This document shows, piece by piece, positions 7,069 through 43,855 of a stretch of 43,855 nucleotides of DNA. The stretch spans positions 1-43,855 of the forward strand of contig JH600052.1 in assembly GCA_000245075.1 (NCBI GenBank), written 5' to 3'. The notes under the pieces are model-generated. The model was not told the origin of the DNA. It searched no databases and was given only the letters and a program-made list of their open reading frames with translations. Both the position numbers and the translations under genes were made by a program. This stretch comes from Acetobacteraceae bacterium AT-5844. Lineage in GTDB: Bacteria > Pseudomonadota > Alphaproteobacteria > Acetobacterales > Acetobacteraceae. Numbering within the stretch: the stretch's first letter is position 1; each line of letters begins with the position of its first letter.

Positions 7069-7322
7069 AGGGGGCGCCGCCCCCTCCGGACCTCCCCCGC
7101 TGGGGTGACAGTGTCACCCCAGACCCCGCCATTCATTTTTCAGAACTGGCGGCACGGTAGTTCCGCCGGGGGATGACATCCCTCGGCGACTGCCGGCTCA
7201 ACCCGCGCGGCTTGTTTAAAAGCTTCTTTGAAATATCTTGATGTTTGGCACACCACCAAACTCGAAGCGGGGTCCGGGGTGGACTTTCCACCCCGGCGGG
7301 GGCCTGGGGGCAGCGCCCCCAG
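7069..7322 (-). repeat. Composite palindromic extragenic element, copy A
   Basis: This fills nearly all the gap between the convergent pheT and M20 peptidase genes. From left: outer hairpin AGGGGGC/GCCCCCT (7069-7085), inner hairpin CTGGGGTGACA/TGTCACCCCAG (7100-7122), central hairpin with 11-bp arms (7164-7188), inner hairpin CCGGGGTGGA/TCCACCCCGG (7274-7296), and outer hairpin CTGGGGGC/GCCCCCAG (7304-7322). Read on the minus strand it aligns along its length with copy D at 43601 onward. The right edge is 8 bp from the peptidase stop. It has no coding content. The inner hairpins lack a long U tract, so it is a weaker terminator candidate than copies B and C. Confidence 0.85.
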
Positions 7323-7330
7323 AGACTTCC

Positions 7331-8743
7331 TCACCCCGCGCGCGGCGGCGTGGCACCCTCGCCCAAATCCCACCACATGCCAGCAAAAGCCGCGATGCCT
7401 TCACGGGCGGGCGCGATCAGGAAGTGTTCGTCCGGCCCGTGCTGCTTGCAGCCGTTATAGCTGTGCGGCACCCACACCAGCGGCACGTTCAGGAAGTCCA
7501 CGAACACGTCGCCCGGCAGGCCACCGCTGGTGTTGGGAATGATCTGCACGCGCTGGCCCAGCGTCTTTTCCATGCTGGCCTGGGCCCAGCGCACCCAAGG
7601 GTGGTCCGGCGCGGTGCGGCTGGCGGGCATGCGCAGGCGGGCGTTCTCGATGCGCACCATCTCCAGCCCGTGGATGTCCAGGTGGTGGCGCAGCGAGGCC
7701 TCGAAGGTCGCCGGGTCGCTGTCCACGGTGTAGCGGATCTGGCAATGCGCCACCGCATTCGGCGCCACGGCATTCACCGGGTTGGCCGGAACGCCGCTGG
7801 TCATGGCCAGGACGATGAAGCTGTTCCAGCCATAGATCTTCTCGGCGGAGGTCAGGCCGGGCTCGCCCCATTCCGGGTCGATGGTCGCCGCCGCGCCGCC
7901 GCCGCCCACCGGGCAATCCTTCAGCACCGAAAGGATGGATTCCGGCACGCCGCCCTGCCCGTTCGAAGGCAGCCACTTCCGCACCAGGATCTTGCCATTG
8001 CGGTCCATGATGGTGGACAGCGCATGGGACAGGATGATGGCCGGGTCCGTGGTCAGCCCGCCCCAATGGCCGGAATGCACACCGCCTTCCCGCAGCCGCA
8101 CCGCGAGATCGAAATGGAAAGTGCCGCGCGTGCCGGTGGCGATGGTGGGCAGCGCCGGCTCCGCGCGGGGGCCATCCGAGGCAATCAGCGCATCGGCCGC
8201 CAGTTCCTGGGCATGAGCCTCCACGAAGGGGCGCAGGCCGAGGCTGCCGCGCTCTTCCGAGGTCTCCAGCACCACCTTCACATTCGCGCCGAGCTTGCCG
8301 CCGCGTTCCGCCAGCACCGCGTCCAGCGCCGCGAGGTTGAGGGCGTGCTGTCCCTTGTTGTCGGCGGTGCCACGGCCGTACCAGCGGTCGCCCCGCTCGG
8401 TCAGAACCCAGGGGGAAAGGCCCTGAGACCACTGCGCGTCCAGACCGGCAACCGTGTCGCCATGGCCATAGAGCAGCACGGTAGGCAGGCTCGGGTCCTC
8501 GATCCGCTGCGCGGTCAGGATGGGGCCGAAGCCCTGGACCGGGTTCGGGTGGATGGTACTCTCGAAGCCCATCCGGGCCAGCCAGGGCTGGATGGCGCCT
8601 TCCAGATAGCGGTCCAGCGCCGGGCGGTGCTGGTCCTCCTGAGAGGTAGAGGGAATCGCGACGAGGCTGGCCAGGAGATCCCGGAAGCCGCCTTCGTCAA
8701 AGAATTGCTGCGCGCGCCCGATCGCGCCGTCGCGTGTCGCCAT
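7331..8743 (-). CDS. M20 family metallopeptidase (dipeptidase/ArgE-DapE superfamily)
   Basis: A 470-residue zinc peptidase of the M20/M28 clan. I choose the ATG at 8743 (MATRDGAIGRAQQFF), preceded by GAAGGGGG; the upstream open frame is not family-like. The binuclear metal site is complete: H94 with D96 (YGHGDT), D128 (GTADNKG), the general base and ligand pair E163/E164 (ETSEERGS), an Asp in ASDGPR, and a C-terminal His in GPDEH. The lid or dimerisation domain lies between, with the VHSGHWGG block. Substrate cannot be read from sequence; relatives cleave dipeptides or N-acyl amino acids. It is the last gene of a minus-strand run after the maiA-like and Gly-rich genes, 116 bp away. Confidence 0.9.
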   Translation of the reverse strand: MATRDGAIGRAQQFFDEGGFRDLLASLVAIPSTSQEDQHRPALDRYLEGAIQPWLARMGFESTIHPNPVQGFGPILTAQRIEDPSLPTVLLYGHGDTVAGLDAQWSQGLSPWVLTERGDRWYGRGTADNKGQHALNLAALDAVLAERGGKLGANVKVVLETSEERGSLGLRPFVEAHAQELAADALIASDGPRAEPALPTIATGTRGTFHFDLAVRLREGGVHSGHWGGLTTDPAIILSHALSTIMDRNGKILVRKWLPSNGQGGVPESILSVLKDCPVGGGGAAATIDPEWGEPGLTSAEKIYGWNSFIVLAMTSGVPANPVNAVAPNAVAHCQIRYTVDSDPATFEASLRHHLDIHGLEMVRIENARLRMPASRTAPDHPWVRWAQASMEKTLGQRVQIIPNTSGGLPGDVFVDFLNVPLVWVPHSYNGCKQHGPDEHFLIAPAREGIAAFAGMWWDLGEGATPPRAG

Positions 8744-8859
8744 TTGGCCCCCTTCGCCATCCCCAGGAGCCGCACTGGACTCCCCTGAAATCAACCAGGC
8801 CGCGAGGATGCGGGGATCGCAGCCGGACGTCGAGGGCCGGCGCATGAATTTCTGGCCGC

Positions 8860-9201
8860 TTAGCGCGTGCGCACCGGCCCGCTGCCGCCGCCACCGCCGC
8901 CACCGGCAAGGCCGGAGCCCAGCAGCGCACCTGCCGCCGCGGGCAGCAGGGCGCCGATGAGGGGCGCGCCCAGCAGGCCCCTGCCGGAGGGCAGCACCAC
9001 CGGCGCCGGCTCCTCGGCATCCGGAACCTGCGCCACGGGGGGGGCCACGAGGCGAGGCACCGCCTGGCCGCGTGGCGCGACCACGACGCCGCTTTCCGCC
9101 GGCACTGCCACGCTCCGCAACTGGGCAGCGGCCGGCAGGGGCAACATGGCCATGGCCGGCAGGCACAGCAGGGCGTGGGTCAGGCAGCGGGGCAGGATCA
9201 T
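8860..9201 (-). CDS. Small secreted Gly/Pro-rich protein of unknown function
   Basis: A 113-residue protein I do not recognise. It starts with a clear signal peptide (MILPRCLTHALLCLPAMAM, probable cleavage after PAAAQ). A Pro/Val-rich middle follows, then a hydrophobic Ala/Leu/Gly segment (GLLGAPLIGALLPAAAGALLG) and a run of seven glycines near the C-terminus. The hydrophobic stretch resembles a Gly-zipper membrane segment. Its ATG overlaps the stop of the maiA-like gene by 4 bp (ATGA), which supports it being translated. It is probably exported to the periplasm or envelope. There is no catalytic motif. Confidence 0.65.
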   Translation of the reverse strand: MILPRCLTHALLCLPAMAMLPLPAAAQLRSVAVPAESGVVVAPRGQAVPRLVAPPVAQVPDAEEPAPVVLPSGRGLLGAPLIGALLPAAAGALLGSGLAGGGGGGGSGPVRTR

Positions 9202-9827
9202 GCGGACGTCTCAGCCAATGGGTTGGGTTGGGTGGCGTGAAACGCCGGTAAGGTCATGCAGGCCGCCTCGGCCGCCAGCAGATGTGGATAGGCCAGGGTC
9301 AGGCCAAGCTCCCGCGCCACGGCCAGCTGGGGTACGAGGCAGATATCGGCGAGGCTAGGCGAAGTGCCGAAGCAGAAGGGACCGTCGCCATCCCGCAGCA
9401 GGGCCTCACAGGCCTCCAGCCCTTCTGTGATGTTCTGCCGCACCCAGGCCCGGGCCTGCATCTCGCCGAGGCCCAGCGCTTGCAGGCGTGCCACGATGCG
9501 GGGCGCGTGCAGAGGATGCATCTCGCAGGTGATGGCCAGCGCAAAGGCGCGTGCCCGGGCGCGGGCATGTGGGTCCACAGGCAGCAACGCAGGGGTAGGC
9601 CACATTTCCTCCAGCCATTCCAGGATGGCGAGGGATTGCGTGAGAGGGCCGTCCTCGGTTTCCAGGACGGGCGCGAGCCCCTGTGGGTTCATGGGCAGCA
9701 GCGTGGCCAGGCGCCCGTCAGCCTCCGACACCTGATGGTGCACTGCTTCGACCCCCAGGCCCTTCAGGGCCAGGGCGATGCGCACCCGCCATGTCGATGA
9801 GGATTGGGCAAAGCCGTGCAGACGCAT
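9198..9827 (-). CDS. maiA: Glutathione S-transferase family protein, maleylacetoacetate isomerase-like
   Basis: A 209-residue zeta-class GST. The N-terminal thioredoxin-like fold has the zeta signature SSSTWRVRIALALKG near residues 9-23 and the glutathione-binding phrases NPQGLAPVLE and LTQSLAILEWLEE. The helical C-terminal domain has the SLADICLVPQL block. Family members isomerise maleylacetoacetate in tyrosine breakdown with glutathione. No other hpd/hmgA/fahA gene is in the window, so a pathway role is not supported by context. It is divergent from the Lrp regulator (180 bp gap) and 4-bp overlapped with the Gly-rich gene downstream. A general GST function is the alternative. Confidence 0.8.
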   Translation of the reverse strand: MRLHGFAQSSSTWRVRIALALKGLGVEAVHHQVSEADGRLATLLPMNPQGLAPVLETEDGPLTQSLAILEWLEEMWPTPALLPVDPHARARARAFALAITCEMHPLHAPRIVARLQALGLGEMQARAWVRQNITEGLEACEALLRDGDGPFCFGTSPSLADICLVPQLAVARELGLTLAYPHLLAAEAACMTLPAFHATQPNPLAETSA

Positions 9828-10007
9828 CGGATCCCTTTCTTGCTCTCAAATTTGTGATCCACAACGCGCGGAGCGTCAACCTTTTCCGGTGCCACCCCCT
9901 GCGGAAGTGGCTGCGGAAGCCAAGTTCCGACAGAATCGTGGCAGAAATACTGTCACGCCTCGCCTCGATTATGGCTTGTCTGACATCTTCCTGCCGCAGG
10001 GGGCTCC

Positions 10008-10460
10008 ATGGACCAGACCGATCACCGCATCCTGCGTGCCCTCGCCCGCAACGGGCGCCTGACCAATGCCGAGCTGGCGGAGGAAGTCGGCCTCTCGGCC
10101 TCCCCTTGCTGGACGCGCGTGCGGCGGCTGGAGCAATCGGGCGTCATCAAGGGCTATGTCGCCCTCATGGATCAGGCGGCGCTTGGCCTGCCGGATACCG
10201 TCTTCGTCGAGGTCATGATGGACAAGCACGACGAGGAAGCGCTTGGCCGGTTCGAGCAGGCGGTGAACGCCATGCCCGAGGTGCTGGAATGCCACCTGAC
10301 CACGGGCGAATACGATTATCTCATCAAGGCCGCCGTCAACGGCACAGCGGGATATGAGGCGCTGCTGCGGGAGAAGCTCTACCGCCTGCCCGGCGTGCGC
10401 CACACCCGCACCGCCTTCGCCCTGCGTTGCCTGAAGCGGAACCTCTCGCCGGTGCCTTGA
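10008..10460 (+). CDS. Lrp/AsnC family transcriptional regulator
   Basis: A 150-residue regulator. Residues ~3-60 form the AsnC-type winged helix (DQTDHRILRALARNGRLTNA, then SASPCWTRVRRLEQSGVIKG). Residues ~65-145 form the RAM ligand-binding domain (VLECHLTTGEYDYLIKAAV). Such proteins are octamers that sense amino acids. The start ATG at 10008 follows GCAGGGGG. It is divergent from the maiA-like gene, so it may control that gene and itself. The shared 180-bp spacer has CCCCCTGCGG near 9896 and its complement CCGCAGGGGG just before the start, but I cannot assign a site. Confidence 0.93.
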   Translation: MDQTDHRILRALARNGRLTNAELAEEVGLSASPCWTRVRRLEQSGVIKGYVALMDQAALGLPDTVFVEVMMDKHDEEALGRFEQAVNAMPEVLECHLTTGEYDYLIKAAVNGTAGYEALLREKLYRLPGVRHTRTAFALRCLKRNLSPVP

Positions 10461-10470
10461 AGGCCCTCGT

Positions 10471-10493
10471 GCGGAGGGGAGATGCCCCTCCGC
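10471..10493. terminator. Bidirectional hairpin between convergent Lrp and M32 genes
   Basis: GCGGAGGGG (10471-10479) pairs perfectly with CCCCTCCGC (10485-10493) around a 5-nt loop, filling the 41-bp gap between two facing stop codons. There is no U tract on either side, so it may act as a 3' end stabiliser or a weak terminator. Confidence 0.55.
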
Positions 10494-10501
10494 CAGTAGC
10501 C

Positions 10502-11986
10502 TCAGGCGGTCAGATACCGCTCCGTCAGATGCGCGGTGAAGTCGGAGGGGTCCAGCGCCTTGCCGGTCGCTTCACGCAGCAGGTCCTGGAAGCCGAGGCG
10601 CGAGCCCTGGCCGTGGACCTTCAACCGCAGCCACTCCCGCAACGGGGTGAAATCGCCCTGCGCCAAGGCGTCATCCAGCCCCGGGACACCAGCGCGGGCC
10701 GCGCGCATCAGCTGCGCCGCGCCCATGGCGCCCAGCGTGTAGGAGGGGAAGTAGCCAAAGGCGCCATCATGCCAGTGGATATCCTGCAGGCAGCCGCGCG
10801 CGTCATCCGGCGGCGTCATGCCGAGCAGGCGCTGGAAGCCTTCATTCCAGGCGGCGGGAATACCCTCCACCTCCAGCTCGCCACCGATCAGCGCACGCTC
10901 CAGGCGGAAGCGGAGGATGACGTGGGCGGGATAGGTCAGTTCATCCGCATCCACGCGGATGAAGCCGCGCTCCACCTTCCGCCACAGGCCGGCGAGGTTG
11001 GCCGCCGCGTAAGGCGCAGCATCGCCGCCGAAGGCAGCGTGCAGCTGCGGGCCGATGAAGCGCAGAAAGGCATCCGACCGGCAGGCCTGCATTTCAATGA
11101 TCAGGCTCTGCGATTCATGCGCGGCCATGCCGGCGGCCTCACCCACCGGCTGATGCGCGAAGGCGGCCGGAAGACCCCGTTCATATAGCGCATGTCCGGT
11201 TTCATGCAGCACGCCGAGCAGGGCCTGCGCCACCGAATCGGTGTTGTAGCGGGTGGTGATGCGCACATCGGTTGGCGTGCCGCCGCAGAAGGGATGCGCG
11301 CTTTCATCCAGCCGGGCGTGGCTGAATTCCAGGCCAACCCGCTCGGCCATGGCGCGGCAAAGGGCCTGCTGCGCCGGAATGGGGAACGGGCCCGGCAACG
11401 GGAGGGGCGCCGGGCGCGCGGCCTGAATGGCCTCGGCACGCGGCAAGGCATCGGCGAGGAAGCTTTCATAGGCCGCGAAGATCGGTTCCACATCAGCGGC
11501 GCCGATGCCGCGCTGATAGCCTTCCATCAGCGCGTCGTAAGGGCTGAGGCCGGTGGCCGCGGAAAGAGCAGCCGCCGTCTCCCGCTGCAGCCGCACCACC
11601 TCTTTCAGCGCGGGCGCGACCATGCCGAAATCAGCATTGGCCCGCGCGGTGCGCCAGCGCTGCTCGCATGCCGCATTGGCGCGGGCGGTGGCCTCCACCA
11701 GCGGAGTGGGCAGCGCGATGGCGCGGGCATGGGCATCCCGCATCAGGGCGAGATTGGCGCTATCCCACATGCCGCTGGCTTCGGCGGCAGCGAGATCCTC
11801 CGCCACCTGCGGCGCGATCAGCAACTCATGCGAAAGGCCGGAGAGCGTGGCCAACTGCTCGCCCCTCGCCTCCGCCCCACCCACGGGCATGACCGCCGCC
11901 GCATCCCAGTGCAGCATGGACTGGGCCTGCCCCAGCAGGGCGATGCGGGCGAAACGCGCCTTCAGGCGGTCACAGGCGGTGCTCAT
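10502..11986 (-). CDS. M32 family metallocarboxypeptidase (Taq carboxypeptidase type)
   Basis: A 494-residue zinc carboxypeptidase that would trim C-terminal residues from peptides. The family HExxH zinc motif is present as HETGH near residue 260 (GVLHETGHALYERG). The third ligand region is E in HESQSLIIEMQ, and the M32-specific blocks DVRITTRY and GLWRKVERGFIRVDADELTYPAHV are intact. The start at 11986 (MSTACDRLKARFARI) is fixed by a 4-bp ATGA overlap with the SURF1 stop; an upstream extension is unlikely. The coupling to an oxidase assembly gene is unusual and may be only positional. It is convergent with the Lrp gene. Confidence 0.94.
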   Translation of the reverse strand: MSTACDRLKARFARIALLGQAQSMLHWDAAAVMPVGGAEARGEQLATLSGLSHELLIAPQVAEDLAAAEASGMWDSANLALMRDAHARAIALPTPLVEATARANAACEQRWRTARANADFGMVAPALKEVVRLQRETAAALSAATGLSPYDALMEGYQRGIGAADVEPIFAAYESFLADALPRAEAIQAARPAPLPLPGPFPIPAQQALCRAMAERVGLEFSHARLDESAHPFCGGTPTDVRITTRYNTDSVAQALLGVLHETGHALYERGLPAAFAHQPVGEAAGMAAHESQSLIIEMQACRSDAFLRFIGPQLHAAFGGDAAPYAAANLAGLWRKVERGFIRVDADELTYPAHVILRFRLERALIGGELEVEGIPAAWNEGFQRLLGMTPPDDARGCLQDIHWHDGAFGYFPSYTLGAMGAAQLMRAARAGVPGLDDALAQGDFTPLREWLRLKVHGQGSRLGFQDLLREATGKALDPSDFTAHLTERYLTA

Positions 11987-12675: not shown

Positions 12676-12769
12676 GCGCTGCCTGTTAGCATGGACGAGG
12701 GAGATTGGCTGCCAGCCGCCATGAAGAAGCGGCCTGCCAGCGGCCCGGCTGTGCCAGGGCATCAGACGC

Positions 12770-12805
12770 AAAAAGGGGCCGGGAAACGTGCTTCCCCGGC
12801 CCCCT
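12770..12805 (-). terminator. Intrinsic terminator of the cta operon
   Basis: On the minus strand GGGGCCGGG (12803-12795) pairs with CCCGGCCCC (12783-12775) and is followed by five T residues (12774-12770). It lies 16 bp after the ctaE stop and separates the oxidase genes from SURF1. Confidence 0.85.
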
Positions 12806-12820
12806 TGCGGAAGAAAAGCC

Positions 12821-13663: not shown

Positions 13664-13705
13664 GGGGCTTCCTGGACTTATTTCATCACACGCGGGCTGA
13701 GACAT

Positions 13706-24614: not shown

Positions 24615-25606
24615 TGGCTATTGCCGATGGTTTTTGGGGGGCGGTGGGCAACACCCCCCTCATCCGCCTGAAGCGCGCCTCAGAGGCGACAGGCTGCGAG
24701 ATCCTCGGCAAGGCCGAGTTCATGAACCCGGGCGGCTCGGTGAAGGACCGTGCCGCCCTCGGCATTTTGCAGGACGCGGTGGATCGCGGCCTGCTGGTGC
24801 CGGGCAAGCCGGGGCTGGTGGTGGAAGGCACGGCCGGCAATACCGGCATCGGCCTCGCCCTCGCCGCGAACGCCCATGGCTGGAAAAGCGTCATCGTCGT
24901 GCCGGAGACGCAGAGCCGCGAGAAGCTGGACTATCTGCGGATGATCGGCGCCGACCTGCGCCTCGTGCCGCCGAAGCCCTATGCGGACCCCGGCAACTAC
25001 GTCCATGTCTCCCGCCGCCTGGCGGAGGAGCTGGGCGGCGTCTGGGCCAACCAGTTCGACAACCTCGCCAATGCGGCGGCGCATGAGCACACCACCGGGC
25101 CGGAGATCTGGGAGCAGACCGGCGGGCGGGTGGATGCCTTCACCTGCGCCTGCGGCACCGGTGGCACGCTCGCCGGCACCGCACGCGCGCTGAAGGCGAA
25201 GAACAAGGACGTTCGCATCGTTCTGGCCGACCCCGCCGGCAGCGGCCTCGCCGCCTGGGTGAAGACCGGAACGGTGAAGGCCTCCGAAGGCAATTCCATC
25301 ACCGAGGGAATCGGGCAGGCCGCCCGCGCCCCCGCCAACCTGCATGGCGCGCCGATCGACGACGCCGTCACCATCCCGGATTCCGAGGCGATGGAGCATG
25401 TCTTCTCGCTGCTGATCGACGAGGGCATCTCCGTCGGCGGCAGCGCGGGGCTGAACGTCGCGGCGGCAGTGCGGGTGGCGAAGACGCTGGGTCCCGGGCA
25501 CACCATCGTCACAGTGCTGGCAGATGGCGGCGCGCGGTACCAGTCCAAGCTCTTCAACCCGGACTTCCTGCGGGAGAAAGGGCTGCCGACGCCGCCCTGG
25601 CTCTAG
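24614..25606 (+). CDS. cysK: Cysteine synthase (O-acetylserine sulfhydrylase)
   Basis: A 330-residue PLP enzyme making cysteine from O-acetylserine and sulfide. The PLP lysine is K44 in NPGGSVKDRAA. The substrate loop TAGNTGIGLA and the phosphate-binding GTGGTLAGTARAL are intact, as is the GGSAGLN block. At 330 residues it is slightly longer than E. coli CysK and resembles CysK2-like/bacterial CBS-like forms without a regulatory domain. No cysE is nearby. It overlaps the peroxiredoxin stop by one base. Copy B of the palindromic element starts 25 bp after its stop. Confidence 0.94.
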   Translation: MAIADGFWGAVGNTPLIRLKRASEATGCEILGKAEFMNPGGSVKDRAALGILQDAVDRGLLVPGKPGLVVEGTAGNTGIGLALAANAHGWKSVIVVPETQSREKLDYLRMIGADLRLVPPKPYADPGNYVHVSRRLAEELGGVWANQFDNLANAAAHEHTTGPEIWEQTGGRVDAFTCACGTGGTLAGTARALKAKNKDVRIVLADPAGSGLAAWVKTGTVKASEGNSITEGIGQAARAPANLHGAPIDDAVTIPDSEAMEHVFSLLIDEGISVGGSAGLNVAAAVRVAKTLGPGHTIVTVLADGGARYQSKLFNPDFLREKGLPTPPWL

Positions 25607-25631
25607 GTGGACCGGTATTCAGAGGAGGAGG

Positions 25632-25883
25632 AAGGCTGGGGAAAGAATTCCCCAGACCCCTTCTTTTTTTCTGCGAGTTTGGCGTGGCGCTTCAGGAGCG
25701 GGAGGGGATGCCCTTGATGATATTTAAAATGGGCGGGCGAGGGCTGAACCCTCAGTCGCCGGAGGTCTAAGACCTCCGGCGCGACCTTGGCTTGGTCTCG
25801 CCAGCCAGCCCTTATCCACAGCCACGCCGGAAAAAACTCGAAGAAAGAAAAGAAGGGGTCTGGGGAATTCTTTCCCCAGCCTT
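25632..25883 (+). repeat. Composite palindromic extragenic element, copy B
   Basis: This occupies most of the 359-bp gap between cysK and the TPP-enzyme gene, both on the plus strand. Left end: hairpin CTGGGGAA/TTCCCCAG (25636-25655), then ACCCC and a run of seven T (25664-25670), a good intrinsic terminator for cysK. Central hairpin CGCCGGAGGTC/GACCTCCGGCG (25757-25781) is perfect over 11 bp. Right end: CTGGGGAA/TTCCCCAG (25860-25879), preceded by GAAGAAAGAAAAGAAGGGGT, which is the left end reversed. The two ends are thus inverted repeats of about 40 bp, with the T tracts pointing inward. It has no coding content. About 80 bp of pyrimidine-rich sequence remains before the next gene. Confidence 0.88.
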
Positions 25884-25965: not shown

Positions 25966-27507
25966 ATGAACGGAGCCGAGAGCCTGGTCCACACCCTGTT
26001 GGCCAGCGGTGTGGACACGTGTTTCGCCAATCCTGGCACCAGCGAGATGCACTTCGTCGCCGCGCTGGACCGGATTCCGGGCATGCGGTGCGTGTTGGGC
26101 CTTCAGGAGAACGTCGTCACCGGCATGGCCGATGGCTACTACCGCATGACCGGCAAGCCGGCGGCGACGCTGCTGCATTGCGGGCCGGGCCTCGCGAACG
26201 GCCTCGGCAACCTGCACAACGCGCGGCGCGCGCGCAGCGGCATCGTCAATGTGGTCGGCGACCAGGCAACCTATCACCGCCCCTATGACGCGCAGCTGAC
26301 GGCCGATACGGAAGGTTGGGCGCGCCCTGTCTCCGCCTGGACGCGCACCTCCACGGATGCGACCAAGGTCGGCGCGGATGCCGCCGTGGCCGTGCAGGCC
26401 GCGCGCACCGCGCCGGGGCAGATCGCCACGCTGATCCTGCCCGCCGACACCGCCTGGAATGATGGTGGCGTGGTGGCCGAAGCCCTGCCCGTCCCCTCCC
26501 CCGTGGCGCCGGACCCGCAGGCCGTGCGCAACGCCGCCCGCGTGCTGCGCGAGAAGAAGAACGTGCTGATCCTGCTGGGTGGCGCCGCTCTGCGTGGCCG
26601 CACCCAGGCGCTGGCCTGGCGCGCGGCGCAAAGCACCGGCCAGAAGGTGATGGCCGAGATGTCCAACGCGCTGGTGGAGCATGGCCGCGGCCGCCTGCCG
26701 CTGGACCGGGTGCCCTACCCTGTCGATGCGGCGGTGAAGGCGCTCGAAAGCTACGAGCACCTGATCCTGGTGAATGCCAAGGCGCCGGTGGGCTTCTTCG
26801 CCTACCCCGGCAAGCCCAGCAAGCACTACCCGGAGAGCGCGGAAGTTCACGTTCTCAGCCGCTACGAGCAGGACGCCGAGCTGGCCTTGCAGGCGCTGGT
26901 GGACGAACTTGGCGCCCCCGAGGCCACCCTGCCGGATGCCGGGCCACGCCCCTCCATCGGCCGTGGCGCGCCGACCTCCGAAGGCGTGGCGCAGACCGTG
27001 GCGGCGCTGCTGCCGGATGATGCCATCATCGTCGATGAAAGCGTTTCCTTCGGCCGCAGCTTCTTCTCCGGCACCCACACGGCTGCCCCGCATGACTGGC
27101 TGCAGCTCACTGGCGGCGCCATCGGCGATGGCATTCCGCTGGCCACGGGCGCAGCGGTCGGCACGGCCGGCCAGCGGCGCGTGGTGAACCTGCAGGCCGA
27201 TGGCTCCGCCATGTACAGCCTGCAGGGGCTGTGGACACAGGCGCGCGAGAAGCTGCCGGTGACCACCGTCATCCTGGCCAACCGCAAGTACCAGATCCTC
27301 ATCGGTGAGTATCAGAATGTCGGCGCCAATCCGGGCCCGACGGCGATGAACATGCTCGATCTCGGCAACCCGGATCTGGACTGGCTACACCTGGCCCGCG
27401 GCATGGGCGTGGAGGCGGCGCGCGCGACGAGCCTGGAGCAGCTGGGCGACCTGATGCAGCAGAGCTTCTCGCAGGACGGCCCCTTCCTCATCGAGCTGGT
27501 GATCTGA
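25966..27507 (+). CDS. TPP-dependent enzyme, acetolactate synthase large-subunit-like
   Basis: A 513-residue thiamine diphosphate enzyme with the three-domain layout of acetolactate synthase and benzoylformate decarboxylase. The catalytic Glu that activates TPP is E48 (GLQENVVTGMADGY). The C-terminal TPP/Mg block is LQADGSAMYSLQGLWTQARE, followed by NRKYQIL. ADG replaces the more usual GDG, as in this subgroup of IlvB-like proteins. There is no small subunit (ilvN) beside it, so a role in branched-chain amino acid synthesis is doubtful; a 2-keto acid decarboxylase or carboligase is as likely. ATG 25966 follows GAGGAGGAG. Confidence 0.85.
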   Translation: MNGAESLVHTLLASGVDTCFANPGTSEMHFVAALDRIPGMRCVLGLQENVVTGMADGYYRMTGKPAATLLHCGPGLANGLGNLHNARRARSGIVNVVGDQATYHRPYDAQLTADTEGWARPVSAWTRTSTDATKVGADAAVAVQAARTAPGQIATLILPADTAWNDGGVVAEALPVPSPVAPDPQAVRNAARVLREKKNVLILLGGAALRGRTQALAWRAAQSTGQKVMAEMSNALVEHGRGRLPLDRVPYPVDAAVKALESYEHLILVNAKAPVGFFAYPGKPSKHYPESAEVHVLSRYEQDAELALQALVDELGAPEATLPDAGPRPSIGRGAPTSEGVAQTVAALLPDDAIIVDESVSFGRSFFSGTHTAAPHDWLQLTGGAIGDGIPLATGAAVGTAGQRRVVNLQADGSAMYSLQGLWTQAREKLPVTTVILANRKYQILIGEYQNVGANPGPTAMNMLDLGNPDLDWLHLARGMGVEAARATSLEQLGDLMQQSFSQDGPFLIELVI

Positions 27508-31862: not shown

Positions 31863-32756
31863 ATGAAGATCGGCGTGATCGGGCTGGGCAGCATGGGCAT
31901 GGGGGCGGCGCAATCCGCCCTGCGGGCCGGCCTGGCGGTTACAGGGGTGGACCCGCGGCAGGCGGCACGGGATGCCTTCGTCGCGGCCGGCGGGCAGGCC
32001 GTGGCCAGCGCGGCGGAATTGCCCGAGGGCACGGAAGCCGTGGTGGTGCTGGTGGTGAACGCGGCGCAGACGGAGACGGCGCTGTTCGGCCCGGATGGCG
32101 CCCTGCCCCGCCTCGCCCAGGACGCGGTCGTCATTTCCTCCGCCACCATGGCGCCCGATGACGCACGCCGCATCGCCGCCCGGCTGGAAGAAGCGGGCAT
32201 GCTGCCGCTGGATGCGCCGGTTTCCGGCGGTGCCGTGAAGGCCATGGCCGGGGAAATGACCGTAATGGCCTCGGGCAGCGCGGCCGCTTTCGACAGGGCG
32301 GCACCTTTGCTGGCCGCCATCGCCACCAAGGTCTGGCGGCTGGGCGACGCACCGGGCATCGGTGCCACGGTGAAGGTGGTGCACCAATTGCTGGCGGGCG
32401 TGCATATCGCCGTGGCGGCGGAGGCGATGGCTCTCGGCATCCGCGCGGGGGCAGACCCGCAGCAGCTCTACGACGTCGTCACCAGCGCGGCCGGCAATTC
32501 CTGGATGTTCGAGAACCGCATGGCGCGCGTGCTGGCCGCCGACGACGCCCCTCGCAGTGCCGTCGATATCTTCGTGAAGGATCTCGGCCTGGTGGCGGAT
32601 ATGGCGAAGGGGCTGGATTTTCCGGTGCCGCTGGCCGCCCAGGCCCAGCAGCTTTTCACCGCCGCGCACGCCCTCGGCCATGGGCAGAAGGATGATGGCT
32701 TCGTCATCCGCGTCTGGCAGGCGATGACAGGGATCAAGCTGCCCGGAGAAGCGTAG
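31863..32756 (+). CDS. NAD(P)-dependent beta-hydroxyacid dehydrogenase, LtnD-like
   Basis: A 297-residue 3-hydroxyisobutyrate-dehydrogenase-family protein. The N-terminal Rossmann motif is [17 protein letters not shown]. The substrate loop is [22 protein letters not shown], and the catalytic Lys is in [23 protein letters not shown]. The QLLAGVH phrase matches L-threonate dehydrogenase (LtnD) more closely than MmsB. No otnK, otnC or otnI genes adjoin it, so the four-carbon acid pathway is not shown here. I choose ATG 31863 (MKIGVIGLG), preceded by GGGAGGA. It is divergent from prpC. Confidence 0.85.
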
Positions 32757-32765: not shown

Positions 32766-33024
32766 AAAAAAAGGGTCTGGAGAAGGAATTCCCAGACCCT
32801 TTCTTGTCTTTTTCCGAGTTTTTTCGGCTTCGGCTGTTGAGGGGTTTGGCCTTTTAAGACTGCACCGGGGTCCCGCCGGAGGTCTATGATGACCTCCGGC
32901 GGCTGAGGGTTCAGCTCGCGCTGCCCATTTTCAATATCACCAAGAGTCTCTGTTACGCCCTCGAAGCTCCACGCCAAACTCGCAGAAAAAAGAAGGGGGT
33001 TTGGGGGAATTCATTCCCCCAATC
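32766..33024 (-). repeat. Composite palindromic extragenic element, copy C
   Basis: This lies in the 323-bp gap between the convergent LtnD-like and pntB genes. Left end: seven A (32766-32772), hairpin GGGTCTGG/CCAGACCC (32773-32799), then TTTCTTGTCTTTTT, a terminator for the plus strand that would also work in reverse. Central hairpin CCGCCGGAGGTC/GACCTCCGGCGG (32873-32902) is perfect over 12 bp. Right end: TTGGGGGAAT/ATTCCCCCAA (33001-33022), which on the minus strand is followed by ACCCCCTTCTTTTTTC, a terminator for pntB. Read on the minus strand it aligns with copy B throughout, including GATATT-GAAAATGGGC near the middle. The remaining 55 bp before pntB is pyrimidine-rich with no structure I can assign. 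Confidence 0.88.
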
Positions 33025-37500: not shown

Positions 37501-37512
37501 GGACCCCAATCC

Positions 37513-39012: not shown

Positions 39013-39045
39013 GCCAGAGATTTTGGGACGGACGAGTTTATCATC

Positions 39046-39789: not shown

Positions 39790-41060
39790 TCACGCTGTTC
39801 GAACCTGGTCCCGAAGGCTTTCTGCGCCGCTATGAGGGGCTGAACGCCCGCCTGCCCGGCAACCGCACCCCCTGGGTCGCGGCGCTGCGGGAGAAGGCGG
39901 CGGCCGCCTTCCGCGCGCAGGGCTTCCCGACCCGCAAGATCGAGGCCTGGCACTTCACCGACCTGGGCATGATGGCCCGTAGCGCCTTCACCGAGGCGCT
40001 GACGCCGGTGGATGGCAGCGTGGAGCTTCCCGCCTCCCACGCTTCGCGCCGGGCGGTGTTCGTCGACGGGCGCTTCCGCGAGGATCTGTCCGAAACGCCG
40101 GTGCAGAGCCTGGGCGCCAATCTCTCGGCGGCCGAAGGGCTGCTGGGCAGCGTGGCGCGCGTGGACGATGTCCCGCTGGCTGCCCTGAACACCATGCTCT
40201 TCGAGGATGGCGCGCTGATCGACCTGCCCGCCGGCGAGGATGGCGGCACGATCGAGCTGCTGTCCATCATCGAAGCGAACGACCGGCCGATCGCCGTGCA
40301 TCCGCGCCATGTCATTCGCCTGGGCAAGGGCGCGACGCTGGTGCTGATCGAGCGTGCCATCGGGCGTGGCGAGGGCCGCTACCTGCATAACCCGGTCGTC
40401 GAGATCGTGCTGGAGGAAGGTGCACACCTCACCCACGCGCGCATCCAGCAGGAAGGCAAGGACGGCATCTTCCTCTCCACCGTCTTCGCGAAGGCGGCGG
40501 CGGGCGCCACCTATGACAGCTTCCTGCTCCATGCCGGCGCGAAGTTCTCGCGCAGCGAGGCGCATGTCTCGCTGGATGGCCCGAAGGCGATGGCGCACCT
40601 CAACGGTGCCCAGCTGCTCTCCGACGGCCAGTTCGGCGACTGCACCACTTTCCTCGACCACGCGGCCCCGGATTGCGCCAGCCGCCAGACGGTGAAGACC
40701 GTGCTGGCCGGCAAGTCCCGCGGCGTGTTCCAGGGCAAGATCCACGTTCATCAGGTCGCCCAGCGCACCGATGGCTACCAGATGAACCAGGCCCTGCTGC
40801 TCTCCGACCAGGCGGAGATCAACAGCAAGCCGCAGCTGGAAATCTACGCGGACGACGTGAAGTGCAGCCACGGCGCCACGGTGGGCGAGCTGGATGAGAA
40901 CCAGCTCTTCTACCTGCAGACGCGCGGCATTCCGCAGGCCACGGCCCGCTCCATGCTGATCGAGGCCTTCCTGGAGGAAGCCGTGGAGTCGGTGGAGGAA
41001 GAGACCGCGCGCGCGGCCCTGGCTGAGGCCGTTGCCGGCTGGTGGGAGAAGGTTGCGTGA
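39786..41060 (+). CDS. sufD: Fe-S cluster assembly protein SufD
   Basis: A 424-residue partner of SufB in the SufBC2D scaffold, helping iron entry. The C-terminal beta-helix block SDQAEINSKPQLEIYADDVKCSHGATVGELDENQLFYLQTRGI is the SufD/SufB family hallmark, including the conserved CSHGAT. The N-terminal part is weakly conserved, beginning MITLFEPGPEGFL. It is coupled to sufC by a 4-bp overlap and to sufS by a 1-bp overlap (TGATG). Confidence 0.97.
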   Translation: MITLFEPGPEGFLRRYEGLNARLPGNRTPWVAALREKAAAAFRAQGFPTRKIEAWHFTDLGMMARSAFTEALTPVDGSVELPASHASRRAVFVDGRFREDLSETPVQSLGANLSAAEGLLGSVARVDDVPLAALNTMLFEDGALIDLPAGEDGGTIELLSIIEANDRPIAVHPRHVIRLGKGATLVLIERAIGRGEGRYLHNPVVEIVLEEGAHLTHARIQQEGKDGIFLSTVFAKAAAGATYDSFLLHAGAKFSRSEAHVSLDGPKAMAHLNGAQLLSDGQFGDCTTFLDHAAPDCASRQTVKTVLAGKSRGVFQGKIHVHQVAQRTDGYQMNQALLLSDQAEINSKPQLEIYADDVKCSHGATVGELDENQLFYLQTRGIPQATARSMLIEAFLEEAVESVEEETARAALAEAVAGWWEKVA

Positions 41061-42301
41061 TGGACGGCGCGGTCGTCTCAGGCTTCAACGTGGAGCGCGT
41101 GCGGCAGGATTTCCCGATCCTGTCGCAGACGGTGCGCGGGAAGAAGCTCGTCTTCCTGGATTCCGGCGCCTCGGCGCAGAAGCCGCGCGCGGTGATCGAC
41201 ACGATGGTGCGCACGATGGAGACGGCCTACGCCAACGTCCATCGTGGCGCGTACAACCTGTCGGAACAGGCCACCGCCGCCTATGAGGCCGCCCGCGCCG
41301 CCGTTGCCCGCTTCATTCACGCGGCGGATGAGCGGGAGGTGGTTTTCACCAGCTCCTCCACCGCCGCCATCAACCTCGTCGCGCACAGCTATGGGCGCGG
41401 CGTGCTGAAGGCCGGCGATGCCGTGCTGATCAGCGAGATGGAACACCACGCCAACCTCGTCCCCTGGCAGATGCTGCGGGATGGGCATGGCATCGAGCTG
41501 CGCGTCGCCCGCGTCACCGATGCTGGCGAGCTGGACCTCGCCGATGTCGAGGCCAAGCTGGCCGATGGCAAGGTGAAGCTCTTCGCCGTGGCGCATATGT
41601 CCAACGTGCTGGGCACCGTGACCCCCGCCGAGCGCCTCGCCGCCCTCGCCCATGCGCATGGCGCCAAGCTGCTGCTGGATGGCTCCCAGGCCGCCGTGCA
41701 CCGGCGTGTGGATGTGCAGGCGCTGGATTGCGACTTCTACGTCTTCACTGGCCACAAGCTCTACGGCCCCACCGGCATTGGTGTGCTCTGGGGGCGAATG
41801 GAGCTGCTGGAGCGGATGCCGCCTTTCCTCGGCGGCGGTGACATGATCGCCGAGGTATCGCTGGAGCGGTTCATCCCCGCCCCGGTGCCGGCGAAGTTCG
41901 AGGCCGGCACCCCGCCCATCATCGAGGCGGTCGGCCTGCACGCGGCCATCGACTATGTCGAGAGCATCGGCATGCCGGCCATCGAGGCGCATGAGCGCAC
42001 CCTGGTGGACCGCGCCATGACGCGGCTGGCCTCCATCGAGGGGCTGACCCTGCTGGGCCGGGCGCAGGATCGCGGCGGCGTCTTCGCCTTCGCGCTCGAC
42101 AACGCCCATGCGCATGATCTTGCAACCCTGCTCGACCGCACGGGCATCGCCGTCCGCTCCGGGCGCCATTGCGCTGAACCCCTCCACGCCCGATTTAATG
42201 TGGAGAGCACCTGCCGCGCCTCCTTCGGCCTCTACACCACGGTGGAGGAGGTCGATTACCTCGCCGAGGCGCTGGTCAAGGCCAGGGAGTTCTTCGCTTA
42301 A
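41060..42301 (+). CDS. sufS: Cysteine desulfurase SufS
   Basis: A 413-residue type II PLP cysteine desulfurase that removes sulfur from cysteine. The PLP lysine is in FTGHKLYGPTG, and the catalytic cysteine is in RSGRHCAEPLHARF near the C-terminus. NNEMEHHANLVPW-type residues (EMEHHANLVPW) bind the cofactor. I choose ATG 41060 (MDGAVVSGFNVE), sharing one base with the sufD stop; a GTG at 41042 would overlap sufD by 19 bp. Its stop shares one base with sufU (TAATG). With SufU next to it, sulfur is likely passed to that protein. Confidence 0.97.
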   Translation: MDGAVVSGFNVERVRQDFPILSQTVRGKKLVFLDSGASAQKPRAVIDTMVRTMETAYANVHRGAYNLSEQATAAYEAARAAVARFIHAADEREVVFTSSSTAAINLVAHSYGRGVLKAGDAVLISEMEHHANLVPWQMLRDGHGIELRVARVTDAGELDLADVEAKLADGKVKLFAVAHMSNVLGTVTPAERLAALAHAHGAKLLLDGSQAAVHRRVDVQALDCDFYVFTGHKLYGPTGIGVLWGRMELLERMPPFLGGGDMIAEVSLERFIPAPVPAKFEAGTPPIIEAVGLHAAIDYVESIGMPAIEAHERTLVDRAMTRLASIEGLTLLGRAQDRGGVFAFALDNAHAHDLATLLDRTGIAVRSGRHCAEPLHARFNVESTCRASFGLYTTVEEVDYLAEALVKAREFFA

Positions 42302-42768
42302 TGTTCGACGACCTGCGCGATCTCTACCAGGAAGTCATCCTGGACCATGGCCGGAAGCCCCGTAACTTCCGCCGGCTGGAGGATGCCGACCGCCACGCCC
42401 GGGGCGACAACCCCATGTGCGGCGACCGGATGGAGCTGTGGGTCAAGCTGGGCGAGGATGGCCGGATCGCCGACGCCGCGTTCCAGGGCAAGGGCTGCGC
42501 CATCTCCATGGCCAGCGCCAGCCTGATGACGGAAACGGTGCGCGGCAAGACGGCCGCCGAGGCGCATGAGCTGGGCGATAAATTCCGCACCCTGGCCATG
42601 ACCGGCACCTGCCCCGAATGCGGCGCGGCCCTGGCGGATGAGATGGAGCGTCTCCAGGTTCTCGGCGGCGTGTCCGAGTATCCCAGCCGGGTGAAATGCG
42701 CGACGCTGGCCTGGCACACGCTGAACAACGCCCTGGACAACAAGCAGGAGGCGGCCAGCAGTGAGTGA
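42301..42768 (+). CDS. sufU: SUF system NifU-like sulfur acceptor SufU
   Basis: A 155-residue IscU-like protein. The metal site is C40, D42 (NPMCGDRM), C66 (GKGCAISM) and C133 (RVKCATLAW). The spacing between C66 and C133 is long, as in Gram-positive SufU and unlike IscU, so it should serve as a zinc-dependent sulfur acceptor for SufS. An extra TCPECG (C104, C107) lies in the inserted segment and is not part of the standard site. The ATG overlaps the sufS stop by one base; the sufT GTG overlaps its end by 8 bp. Confidence 0.95.
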   Translation: MFDDLRDLYQEVILDHGRKPRNFRRLEDADRHARGDNPMCGDRMELWVKLGEDGRIADAAFQGKGCAISMASASLMTETVRGKTAAEAHELGDKFRTLAMTGTCPECGAALADEMERLQVLGGVSEYPSRVKCATLAWHTLNNALDNKQEAASSE

Positions 42769-43201
42769 CGATACCACCACCAAGCCCCAGCGCCCCATGG
42801 CTCCCGGCCCCGCCGACTTCGCGCGGGAAGAGCAGGAAGCCAAAGCCGCCACGCTGAGCAGCTGGACGCCGGATGGCGAGCAGCCGACGCCGCCGGACCA
42901 TGTCTCGGAGGGCGCTGTGATCGACATGATCGGCACGGTGTTCGACCCTGAGATCCCGGTGAACATCTACGAGCTGGGGCTGATCTACGCGATCGAGATC
43001 GGCGACGACGGCAAGGTGAAGGTGGAGATGACGCTCACCGCGCCCTCCTGCCCCTCCGCCCAGGAATTGCCGCAGCAGGTGGAGGAAGCCATCCGCCTGG
43101 TGCCCGGCGTGACCGATGTCTCCGTCGAAGTGGTGTGGGACCCGCCCTGGGACCCGTCGCGCATGAGCGAGGATGCCCGCCTCGCCCTGAACATGTTCTG
43201 A
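42761..43201 (+). CDS. sufT: SUF system protein SufT (DUF59/MIP18 family)
   Basis: A 146-residue protein. A low-complexity leader of about 45 residues precedes the MIP18 domain: VIDMIGTVFDPEIPVNIYELGLIY, then LTAPSCPSAQELPQQVEEAI with the conserved Cys, and VVWDPPWDPSRMSEDARLALN. SufT aids Fe-S protein maturation under high demand; the mechanism is not settled. The start is GTG at 42761 (VSDDTTTKPQ), overlapping sufU by 8 bp. No other start fits the domain boundary as well. Confidence 0.94.
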   Translation: MSDDTTTKPQRPMAPGPADFAREEQEAKAATLSSWTPDGEQPTPPDHVSEGAVIDMIGTVFDPEIPVNIYELGLIYAIEIGDDGKVKVEMTLTAPSCPSAQELPQQVEEAIRLVPGVTDVSVEVVWDPPWDPSRMSEDARLALNMF

Positions 43202-43217
43202 GAGGGGGAACCCGCCG

Positions 43218-43586
43218 ATGAGCACAACCACCGCCGCCCCGCGCGCTCCCCGCGCCCTGCCGCCGCTGATGCAGCTTTCCGATACGGCCGCCGAGCGGCT
43301 GCAGAAGCTCTACGCCAGCGGCCAGGAAGGCAAGCTGTTGCGCATCGCCGTCAGCACCAAGGGCTGCTCCGGCATGTCCTACGACCTGTCCTGGGCCGAT
43401 GAAGCCGGGCCGACCGATGAGGTGGTGACGGATAAGGGCGTGACCGTGCTGGTGGACCGCAAGGCCACGCTGTTCCTGATCGGCACGACGATGGATTACG
43501 AGGTGAAGGCCATGTCCGCGGGCTTCACCTTCGTGAACCCGAATGAGAAGGGCCGCTGCGGGTGCGGCGAGAGCTTCCACGTCTGA
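43218..43586 (+). CDS. sufA: Fe-S carrier protein, HesB/IscA family (SufA)
   Basis: A 122-residue A-type carrier that receives clusters from SufBC2D. The three conserved cysteines are in KGCSGMSYDLSW (residue ~54) and the C-terminal RCGCGESFHV pair. A Pro/Ala-rich 15-residue leader precedes the fold. AGGGGGAA is upstream of the ATG. It ends the suf operon; copy D begins 15 bp after the stop. Confidence 0.96.
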   Translation: MSTTTAAPRAPRALPPLMQLSDTAAERLQKLYASGQEGKLLRIAVSTKGCSGMSYDLSWADEAGPTDEVVTDKGVTVLVDRKATLFLIGTTMDYEVKAMSAGFTFVNPNEKGRCGCGESFHV

Positions 43587-43600
43587 GGGCGTGGCGCCTG

Positions 43601-43855
43601 CCGGGGGCGCTGCCCCCGGGCCCCCGCCGGGGTGAAAAGTTCACCCCGGACCCCGCTTCGAGTTTGGCGGTGCGCTGAACCCATGAAGCGATGCGCTGAA
43701 CATCAGCGATTTCAAAGAATTTCTAAAAGCCACGCGGGCCAAACCCGCAGTCGCCGAAGATCCTGGACCTTCGGCGGAACCACCGTGCCACAGCCAAAGG
43801 AATGGCGGGGTCTGGGGTGATACTATCACCCCAGCGGGGGTCCAGGGGGCAGCGC
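43601..43855 (+). repeat. Composite palindromic extragenic element, copy D (cut by the window end)
   Basis: From left: outer hairpin CCGGGGGC/GCCCCCGG (43601-43619), inner hairpin CCGGGGTGAA/TTCACCCCGG (43627-43649), then GACCCCGCTTCGAGTTTGGC, central hairpin CGCCGAAG/CTTCGGCG (43752-43776, with further pairing inside), inner hairpin CTGGGGTGATA/TATCACCCCAG (43812-43834), and the first half of an outer hairpin at the edge. It aligns with the minus strand of copy A. It holds an extra ~21-bp imperfect duplication with GCGCTGAAC twice (near 43672 and 43693) that copy A lacks. Confidence 0.85.

Follow-up and report, generated by a model that had tools for sequence, protein, structure and literature searches.

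Non-coding repeats of roughly 250 bases that closely follow genes in Pseudoroseomonas-type bacteria: a large family with two opposed putative intrastrand-triplex motifs

Introduction

RIME and the ABC mosaics of rhizobia, ERIC, Correia and other bacterial MITEs are intergenic, palindromic and present in high copy number. The repeats described here resemble them by description, and differ from them in showing no clear target duplication. In the available parts of PMC3733652 and PMC1525189, REP and BIME repeats (GTAG and CGTC super-families) are likewise palindromes often found in inverted pairs, mostly between convergent or unidirectional genes, and are insertion-sequence targets; the same sources (PMC3733652/PMC1525189) report that CGTC repeats are missing in Acetobacteraceae, and take G-T pairing as a sign of RNA action. 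The central stem-loop of Br-REP1 of Bradyrhizobium occurs at about 200 sites, and its flanking palindrome is found separately in relatives (PMC5082802, available part).

BoxC/PIT/TM(ECO) motifs, as presented in the available part of PMC4666352, are also repeated and intergenic, with a block of purines, the complementary block and a third, triplex-compatible block on a single strand. Five loci of E. coli K-12 hold two intrastrand-triplex motifs in inverted configuration, and such repeats of E. coli are linked to variable loci (PMC4666352). TM(ECO) belongs to class II (pyrimidine, purine, third purine), is 37 nt long and is found more often upstream of ORFs, at no set distance (PMC4666352), whereas the elements described here have the class I/III order, form a fixed pair with a central module and lie at stop codons. 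The strings "covari" and "compensat" have 0 occurrences in the available text of that paper.

Results

Four composite copies of two types

The window is the whole stretch of DNA that was analysed, namely 43,855 nt of contig JH600052.1 of Acetobacteraceae bacterium AT-5844. A preliminary description had placed in it four copies (A to D) of a composite element, and both the copies and their common plan are borne out by the sequence: end hairpin(s), an ACCCC run, CGAGTTT, a one-sided A-rich patch and a central hairpin adjoining CAGTCGCCG. What had been taken for a single family has the conserved ends, intergenic location and high copy number expected, but consists of two subfamilies (type I, copies A and D; type II, copies B and C). 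The features are as follows.

7069..7322, - strand: copy A, composite of type I, flanked by pheT (+, stop 7062-7064) and by an M20 peptidase gene (-, ends 7331)
7070..7098, + strand: copy A left arm, hairpin 1 (7070-7084, GGGGGC/GCCCCC), followed by the third run CCCCC (7094-7098)
7100..7122, + strand: copy A left arm, hairpin 2 (CTGGGGTGAC/GTCACCCCAG), then ACCCC
7163..7192, - strand: copy A central hairpin, adjoining CAGTCGCCG (reads on -)
7215..7237, - strand: copy A A/T-rich patch
7274..7322, - strand: copy A right arm, opposite orientation, hairpin 2 (7274-7296) and hairpin 1 (7304-7322)
25632..25883, + strand: copy B, composite of type II, downstream of a PALP gene (+, stop 25604-25606) and upstream of a TPP-enzyme gene (+, start called at 25966)
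25632..25670, + strand: copy B left arm, hairpin GGGGAA..TTCCCC (located within 25636-25655), followed by ACCCCTT and a T-rich run
25714..25734, + strand: copy B A/T-rich patch TTGATGATATTTAAAATGGGC, which is also conserved in the consensus of type II
25753..25781, + strand: copy B central hairpin, CAGTCGCCGGAGGTC-taa-GACCTCCGGCG
25844..25883, - strand: copy B right arm, opposite orientation, same hairpin, third run CCCCTT
32766..33024, - strand: copy C, composite of type II, flanked by a 3-hydroxyisobutyrate-dehydrogenase-like gene (+, stop 32754-32756) and by pntB (-, ends 33080)
32777..32805, + strand: copy C left arm, degraded hairpin, in which no perfect stem of 6 was found
32873..32905, - strand: copy C central hairpin
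32986..33022, - strand: copy C right arm, GGGGGAA..TTCCCCC hairpin, third run CCCCCTT
43601..43855, + strand: copy D, composite of type I, downstream of an Fe-S biosynthesis (SufA-like) gene (+, stop 43584-43586)
43603..43649, + strand: copy D left arm, hairpin 1 (43603-43617), its third run CCCCC and hairpin 2 (43627-43649)
43748..43777, + strand: copy D central hairpin, CAGTCGCCGAAGATC..
43812..43855, - strand: copy D right arm, opposite orientation, with hairpin 2 (43812-43834) and a hairpin 1 truncated at the window edge

Copy D meets a scaffold gap of 20 N at the window edge. Copy A lies in inverse orientation to copy D (91% complementarity of 7243-7320 with 43603-43680), and copy C in inverse orientation to copy B (84% complementarity of 25650-25700 with 32956-33006). 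Copies A and B, which were folded, are each predicted to form one long single stem (z-scores -8.6 and -13.1), and none of 200 shuffles was equally stable.

In the draft genome of AT-5844 itself, matches to the family merge into 67 places on 32 contigs, and blastn of the copies against its other loci gave E-values as low as 2.4e-90. The high-copy family that had been suggested is thus larger than claimed, and far from confined to the four original loci. An origin by chance or assembly artefact is rejected, the family being present in many genomes. As the preliminary description anticipated in finding no named relative, Rfam gave 0 matches at gathering score in the window; laxer scans of copies A and B yielded, as lowest E-value, BjrC80 on copy A (22 bits against 80, E 0.023). 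Plasmid matches are only short and partial, and occur in P. cervicalis plasmids. Arms are also present in many other genera of Acetobacteraceae, where they are mostly single, which suggests that the arms are probably older than the composite. Judged from these sequences, the repeats form a large family in Pseudoroseomonas-type bacteria, whose members are non-coding, roughly 250 bases long and placed directly downstream of genes.

By eye, two alignments of 39 arms each reveal no GTAG or CGTC tag at the arm ends, which are mostly AAGGC or GGGGGC-like. The elements further differ from REP/BIME in their longer unit and in the absence of a RAYT gene from the AT-5844 genome. Br-REP1 is set apart by description and by eye, as its central palindrome differs (CCGGAATCTCGAGATTCCGG, compared with CGCCGGAGGTC..GACCTCCGGCG here) and the available part of PMC5082802 describes no third run.

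The composite as a unit

Among the 211 inverted arm pairs in the fetched loci, 161 are II/II, 50 are I/I and none is mixed, and 183 span 200-280 bp. Cores up to 97% identical sit in differing flanks (closest pair: core identity 0.97, flanks 0.50-0.56). The first 30 nt beyond the left end are nonetheless 0.59-0.66 identical in three of the five compared pairs, above the random 95% level of 0.58, so that the left end of the element may be fuzzy. The nearest type II relative lies within the same species for 18 of the 21 AT-5844 copies and 99 of the 102 copies labelled aerophila. Empty sites, proposed earlier as a check, do exist: nine distinct sites are empty in AT-5844 and filled in relatives. 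Near-identical cores in different flanks, together with these sites, indicate that the composite has spread as a unit in the Pseudoroseomonas lineage.

To this extent the suggestion of a MITE-like mobile element holds, the element being a non-coding unit with sharp ends (the left possibly fuzzy) and near-identical copies in unrelated flanks; a clear target-site duplication is the part that does not. Among 136 pairs of type II and 42 of type I, no clear direct repeat of 4 or 6 nt was found: the offset ranking first for type II falls within the element, the remaining ones comprise 3-5 copies, about as in shuffles, and the true end is uncertain. A RAYT-driven REP is rejected, as RAYT (PF01797) has 0 matches in the AT-5844 genome; one of the 17 genus genomes contains PF01797, as a 36-position fragment. 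No autonomous relative with the same ends was detected among arm pairs up to 1500 nt in the fetched loci. Other mobile sequences have inserted into elements.

Each end hairpin covaries internally, without covariation with the opposite arm: the left-right identity within an element is reached by 203 of 2000 shuffles in other loci and 277 of 2000 in AT-5844. Hairpins that vary with themselves and not with the other end argue that the ends are not simple terminal inverted repeats, and a single long palindrome maintained by arm-to-arm pairing is unsupported. The outer motif GGATCGAYATT was also rejected as a pre-existing palindromic target (30 inverted pairs, 27 of them within genes, versus 85 in the three other orientations).

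Position relative to genes

Two features escaped the earlier reading, namely the placement directly downstream of stop codons and a third run whose sequence varies along with the hairpin. In 444 kb, arms are held by 9 of 37 convergent, 9 of 126 tandem and 1 of 56 divergent gaps, and the first arm begins 2-26 nt after the stop in eight of the nine tandem gaps. In other genera, whose loci were selected by arm matches, the 42 gaps with arms (doubles removed) are convergent in 15 cases, tandem in 27 and divergent in none, with a stop-to-arm distance of at most 10 nt in 25 of 36 cases. A gap-type count over loci selected for the central motif agrees, with few elements in divergent gaps. Such inverted palindrome pairs, placed in convergent or tandem and rarely in divergent gaps, are BIME/REP-like in the broad sense.

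In each of four convergent gaps that are empty in AT-5844 (33-42 nt), a simple, perfectly paired hairpin of 6-11 pairs takes the place of the arms present in a relative. As regards a possible role of the elements in causing rearrangement, the neighbouring gene is changed at 64 of 100 element-bearing 3' ends, compared with 7 of 73 without an element, but element-free convergent gaps are mostly changed too (5 of 7).

Covariation of stem and third run

In each arm, a third run follows the first hairpin and varies along with its stem, in parallel register. As this register is required by a triplex and not by Watson-Crick pairing, the variation fits a three-stranded fold. The third run fits in 81 of 92 arms for type I hairpin 1 (shuffle mean 31, maximum 46 in 2000 shuffles) and 240 of 282 type II arms (mean 160, maximum 176 in 1000); in other genera it fits in 21 of 22 type I arms (maximum 17 in 2000) and 17 of 25 type II arms (maximum 13 in 1000). 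These shuffles ignore the descent common to copies, and significance is thereby overstated; a guard against shared descent is provided by about a dozen different stem variants, each with a fitting third run. The rule is broken by 42 of the 282 type II arms, and by 8 of the 25 in other genera. Unparsed arms number 13 for type I (5 in other genera), 44 for type II (1) and 15 for hairpin 2 (2).

The register itself can be read from stem GAGGG, which carries CTCCC in 10 of 13 cases and CCCTC in 0 of 13. In 531 of 573 type II cells, an A of the stem is accompanied by A or T in the third run, and A stands opposite A-T in 90 cells. Antiparallel matching also exceeds its shuffles (43 of 92, maximum 30; 15 of 22, maximum 14, in other genera), because the symmetric stems GGGGG and GGAGG count both ways. 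Against a triplex, type I hairpin 2 is off the rule, its C-run staying at 4 when the G-run is 6 (6/6 in the first set, 6/6 in other genera).

Three blocks that fit triads occur on a single strand, as in intrastrand triplex motifs of the PIT/TM kind, for which stems of 6-15 and loops of 1-6 nt are specified; the type II motif reads GGGGAA-NGAA-TTCCCC-about 3 nt-CCCCTT or CCCCAT. With 5 triads, type I hairpin 1 falls short of the published minimum of 6, and the shortness of the putative triplexes (5-8 triads) counts against this assignment.

Terminators, promoters and wobble pairs

No canonical intrinsic terminator (G+C-rich hairpin, then T-tract) was found at the arms of copies A and B, where a C-run stands at the place at which the U-tract should begin; a T-rich tract follows the C-run in type II arms. 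No sigma-70 promoter was found in these two copies. The G-T pairing sign of REP RNA action is not seen in the arms, whose stems exhibit no wobble excess in other species (G-T 13 versus A-C 19) and neither mismatch at pairs 1-8 in AT-5844 (G-T 0, A-C 0). In the centres of other species, G-T and A-C pairs number 11 and 2 for type I (p 0.02), and 29 and 37 for type II; at pairs 1-11 of AT-5844 centres, the corresponding numbers are 1 and 2 for type I, and 3 and 1 for type II.

Discussion

Starting from the observed family, unit length, position and covariation of hairpin and third run, we infer triplex formation in cells, an action on polymerases and a mechanism of unit movement. Our tentative reading, possible rather than probable, is that of a dispersed non-coding gene-end boundary element with two opposed putative intrastrand-triplex motifs. 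The element, about 245-260 bp long, would consist of two opposed arms flanking a one-sided central module (A/T-rich patch and hairpin), each arm comprising a polypurine hairpin and then a third pyrimidine run able to lie in the stem groove. The gene-sense strand would present the order purine, pyrimidine, third pyrimidine (class III of PMC4666352, available part), and the template strand the order third purine, purine, pyrimidine (class I, the purine motif). With the composite usually beginning a few to a few tens of bases after a stop codon, the strands would open at polymerase arrival, the arm facing the polymerase would fold into a hairpin or triplex, and the folded arm would stop or slow the polymerase; two opposed arms would serve both genes of a convergent pair.

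Several observations speak against a boundary function. Of the 23 single arms located in tandem gaps of other genera, 9 are directed at the start of the next gene, not at the stop; where a tandem gap contains a pair, its inner arm is directed at no gene end, yet such pairs are retained. Inspection by eye shows no arm at the pheT end in genome G008, and four P. aerophila arms behind an ordinary-looking terminator. Earlier work on E. coli PIT/BoxC reported no terminator activity and no in vivo effect (PMC4666352, available part).

Alternatively, the composite could be a selfish MITE-like element moved by an enzyme supplied elsewhere, the arm hairpins being recognised by this enzyme and the post-stop placement resulting from loss of gene and promoter insertions, with no action at gene ends. 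The unit with fairly sharp ends, the species-specific amplification, the filled and empty sites, the few copies in divergent gaps and the insertion of other mobile sequences favour such an element; a clear target-site duplication, an autonomous parent among fetched pairs and a RAYT in the AT-5844 genome were not found, and such an element leaves unexplained why arms begin 2-26 nt after the stop in long tandem gaps, why single arms of other genera lie close to stops, and why the third run agrees with the stem. We consider it rather unlikely. Action at the RNA level also seems unlikely: in REP/BIME-like 3'-end elements, mRNA hairpins would be two-way terminators or exonuclease blocks, and the third run an RNA (class III) triplex or a mere tract. 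Position after stop codons, the T-rich tract of type II arms, the simple hairpins at empty sites, the G-T excess in type I centres of other species and the REP roles told in the available parts of PMC5082802 and PMC3733652 agree with this, but arm stems and type II centres have no wobble excess, a C-run occupies the expected U-tract start in copies A and B, and A opposite A-T fits the purine motif, which according to the available part of PMC4666352 is not formed in RNA.

The agreement of stem and third run might also reflect inheritance of a few ancestral variants, or pairing of opposite arms in a long foldback, instead of a triplex. Copies A and B do fold as one long stem, the third runs of both arms are complementary to one another, the C-run of type I hairpin 2 is constant and shuffles ignore descent. 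Arm-to-arm covariation was however not found in the shuffle comparisons, a foldback offers no reason for a third run to track its own stem in parallel register, and the arms of other genera, mostly single, obey the third-run rule too, all of which makes this explanation very improbable.

For the boundary element, stems and third runs that change together in triplex register, in many copies, in several genera and near stop codons, mean that the sequence record can test whether BoxC/PIT-type triplexes act in cells, and the natural stem/third-run variants (such as GAGGG/CTCCC, GGAGG/CCTCC and GGGGGAG/CCCCCTC) already provide compensated pairs for experimental use. Because the elements interrupt draft assemblies and have received other insertions, they are also relevant to the interpretation of these genomes. 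A wider proposal, which we hold to be doubtful, is that Acetobacteraceae mark gene ends with short intrastrand DNA triplex hairpins under three-strand selection, the Pseudoroseomonas composite being a mobile double mark that has replaced ordinary intergenic terminators. If this were true, three-strand covariation would be evolutionary evidence of intrastrand triplexes forming and mattering in living cells.

Copy number, types and taxonomic range

Composite elements fall into two types, I (copies A and D of the window) and II (copies B and C), and both types share a plan of two opposed arms, a one-sided A/T-rich patch and a central hairpin adjoining CAGTCGCCG. In the draft genome to which the window belongs (5.19 Mb, 157 contigs; the window is G000:C143:1-43855), blastn returned at least 44 matches with copy A as query and at least 113 with copy B (40 candidates scored in each search). 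Merging these matches by position, and adding two places from an arm-model search, gave at least 67 places, partial copies counted, distributed over 32 contigs. Composite repeats break up this draft assembly. Across Acetobacteraceae, the family within which Pseudoroseomonas falls (NCBI taxonomy), the type I arm model matched 66 of 150 genomes and 50 of 102 genera, and the type II model 36 and 27, respectively (E 0.001; about 33-36 candidates scored per genome); weak single matches may be due to chance. The exact central pattern was found in at least 96 stretches across the named genomes, and the six that lie outside Roseomonas-like bacteria, among the matches listed, look like chance occurrences.

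Arm structure

Read from the outer end inward, a type II arm consists of AAGGC[T/C]GGGGAA-NGAA-TTCCCC[A/G]G-A-CCCC[T/A]TC, a T-rich run and CGAGTTT, while a type I arm comprises hairpin 1 (GGGGGC-GCT-GCCCCC), a third run (CCCCC), hairpin 2 (CYGGGGTG..CACCCCRG) and ACCCCGC. The 473 distinct arms of one set of fetched loci resolved into 211 inverted pairs and 51 single arms. Pairs were II/II (161) or I/I (50), never mixed, and spanned 200-280 bp in 183 cases (240-260 in 137).

In other species, pairs 1-8 of the arm stems are 97% Watson-Crick (2171 of 2232 cells, 279 arms), with 13 G-T and 19 A-C mismatches, a balance that does not point to RNA. Central hairpins of type I in other species show 11 G-T versus 2 A-C mismatches on the CAGTCGCC strand, unlike those of type II (29 versus 37).

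We also considered a long foldback between arms. Within the same type II hairpin, positions 6 and 23 (112 elements, other loci) are C-G in 143 cases and T-A in 29, the non-pairing or register-shifted remainder being C-C (25), T-C (15), C-A (8) and others (4). Position 6 and the opposite arm's position 23 give C-G 55, C-A 22, C-C 15, T-G 13, T-C 5 and T-A 2. As these positions pair less across arms than inside their own hairpin, the long foldback was rejected as the conserved structure.

Agreement between stem and third run

The third run, a pyrimidine run following the arm hairpin, is a candidate third strand of an intrastrand triplex, and it varies with the stem. Hairpin 1 stems of type I read GGGGG, AGGGG, GAGGG or GGAGG, and the runs after them are mostly CCCCC, ACCCC or TCCCC, CTCCC and CCTCC; the A preceding CCCC in AGGGG arms may be a plain spacer. 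In parallel register, 81 of 92 arms agree (2000 shuffles: mean 31, maximum 46). Antiparallel agreement (43 of 92; shuffles: mean 21, maximum 30) arises through the symmetric stems, and the GAGGG stem, which decides the register, is followed by CTCCC in 10 of 13 arms and by CCCTC in none of the 13. In type II, G-run and C-run lengths are equal in 231 of 275 arms (5000 shuffles: mean 168, maximum 186), and 240 of 282 arms obey the full rule, under which G is matched by C and A by either A or T (1000 shuffles: mean 160, maximum 176); 42 break it.

Other genera show the same agreement: 21 of 22 type I hairpin 1 arms in parallel register (shuffle maximum 17) and 15 of 22 in antiparallel (maximum 14), and 17 of 25 type II arms, the rule being broken in eight (shuffles: mean 6.5, maximum 13). 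They add the stem/third-run variants GGGGGAG/CCCCCTC, GGGGAGAA/CCCCTCAT and GGGGAAA/CCCCATT. Type I hairpin 2 goes against the third-run rule, its C-run staying at four with a G-run of six (6/6 in the first set, 6/6 in other genera). We know of no Watson-Crick partner within the arm able to yield the parallel match; purine-motif triads of the template strand (G.G-C, A.A-T and T.A-T) do yield one.

Position relative to genes

Genes were predicted with a purpose-built small codon-usage caller, which places stop codons fairly well and start codons less well. Among gaps of at least 40 nt within 443,855 bp of the genome carrying the window, arms occupy 9 of the 37 convergent ones, 9 of the 126 tandem ones and 1 of the 56 divergent ones, in a non-random sample since contigs C60, C153 and C50 and the window were known beforehand to carry copies; four arms fall outside every listed gap. 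The first arm begins 2-26 nt past the stop in eight of nine tandem gaps. Contig C49 carries no arms within its first 180 kb and a partial composite match at 182.9 kb (blastn); it encodes a repABC-type RepC at 174070.

Among the named loci, a set biased by selection for the central motif, arms occupy 66 of 76 convergent, 56 of 170 tandem and 7 of 71 divergent gaps. Short loci from other genera, picked by arm matches, provided 42 gaps with arms once doubles were removed: 15 convergent, 27 tandem and no divergent. Single arms fill 35 of them and pairs seven (spans 120-272, one of mixed type). The stop-facing arm lies within 10 nt of the stop in 25 of 36 distances, and the 23 single arms in tandem gaps face the stop (14) or the next start (9).

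Spread and insertion sites

The composite has spread: type II cores at different loci are up to 97.2% identical. In five close copy pairs, identity drops from 0.90-0.97 in the core to 0.46-0.66 over the first 30 nt outside and 0.44-0.58 over the next 30 (random median 0.49, 95% level 0.58), so the unit ends near the hairpins, and a faint tail may extend outside it. Type II copies mostly have their closest relative within their own species: this applies to 18 of 21 copies from the genome carrying the window and to 99 of 102 labelled aerophila, a label that is wrong for a few of the loci L141-L156 (e.g. L143, L154).

Comparing gaps with relatives revealed nine distinct sites empty in this genome and filled in a relative (one double removed). 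None of the compared gaps showed the reverse, as expected because most relatives' loci were picked for the motif. Four of the empty convergent gaps (33-42 nt) each hold a perfect hairpin of 6-11 pairs. At the pheT end, a type I element lies between the same genes in genomes G001, G007 and G009; by eye, G005 and G014 have other neighbours and type II-like arms, and G008 has no arm. No clear target duplication was found around composite pairs, nor any RAYT (the Y1/IS200-like transposase tied to REPs) in the genome carrying the window.

Several copies contain gaps of 20 Ns (e.g. at 43855), some with overlapping ends. A second palindromic element, whose ends resemble GAGACCGTTTGGAAA / TTTCCAAACGGTCTC with slight variation, was seen by eye as an insertion within composites of P. 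aerophila or G001, as was an insertion-sequence-like stretch in another fetched locus:

L107:7571-7978, second palindromic element
L148:579-986, second palindromic element
L092:5462-6020, second palindromic element
L174:1048-1452, second palindromic element
L210:1653-2095, second palindromic element
L098:2956-3952, insertion-sequence-like stretch within one composite, ends GGGTCTGGTCCAGATTAGG / CCTAATCTGGACCAGACCC

In some type II arms the hairpin is separated from the run after it by a roughly 20-bp palindrome, TCAAACSTATASGTTTGA or a near variant, at an identical arm location across several species (L039 and L051 from the genome carrying the window, where L045 is cut by Ns; also L064, L092, L124, L139, L123 and L213). 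Outside many type II arms of that genome lies a degenerate motif near YTAGG-n-GGATCGAYATT (e.g. 25604-25625). It exceeds the 95% background level in 24 of 49 flanks, a count inflated by scoring words taken from 16 such flanks. In 10 of 29 cases its TAG serves as the stop codon of the neighbouring gene, versus 30 of 324 in general; P. aerophila-type loci show no excess (13 of 124).

Known systems and interpretation

Among the published titles on repeats that we found, none describes the composite family. In the portions of PMC3733652, PMC5082802, PMC1525189 and PMC4666352 on which our comparison rests, the close analogues are the TM/BoxC pairs (PMC4666352) and Br-REP1 (PMC5082802). E. coli PIT elements, as told in PMC4666352, had no terminator activity in earlier work.

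Composites sit at stops, and their stems agree with their third runs. We infer that the arms fold as triplexes in cells and that they act on polymerases. The best account of the composite is a dispersed gene-end boundary element, which would be built from two opposed intrastrand-triplex hairpins.
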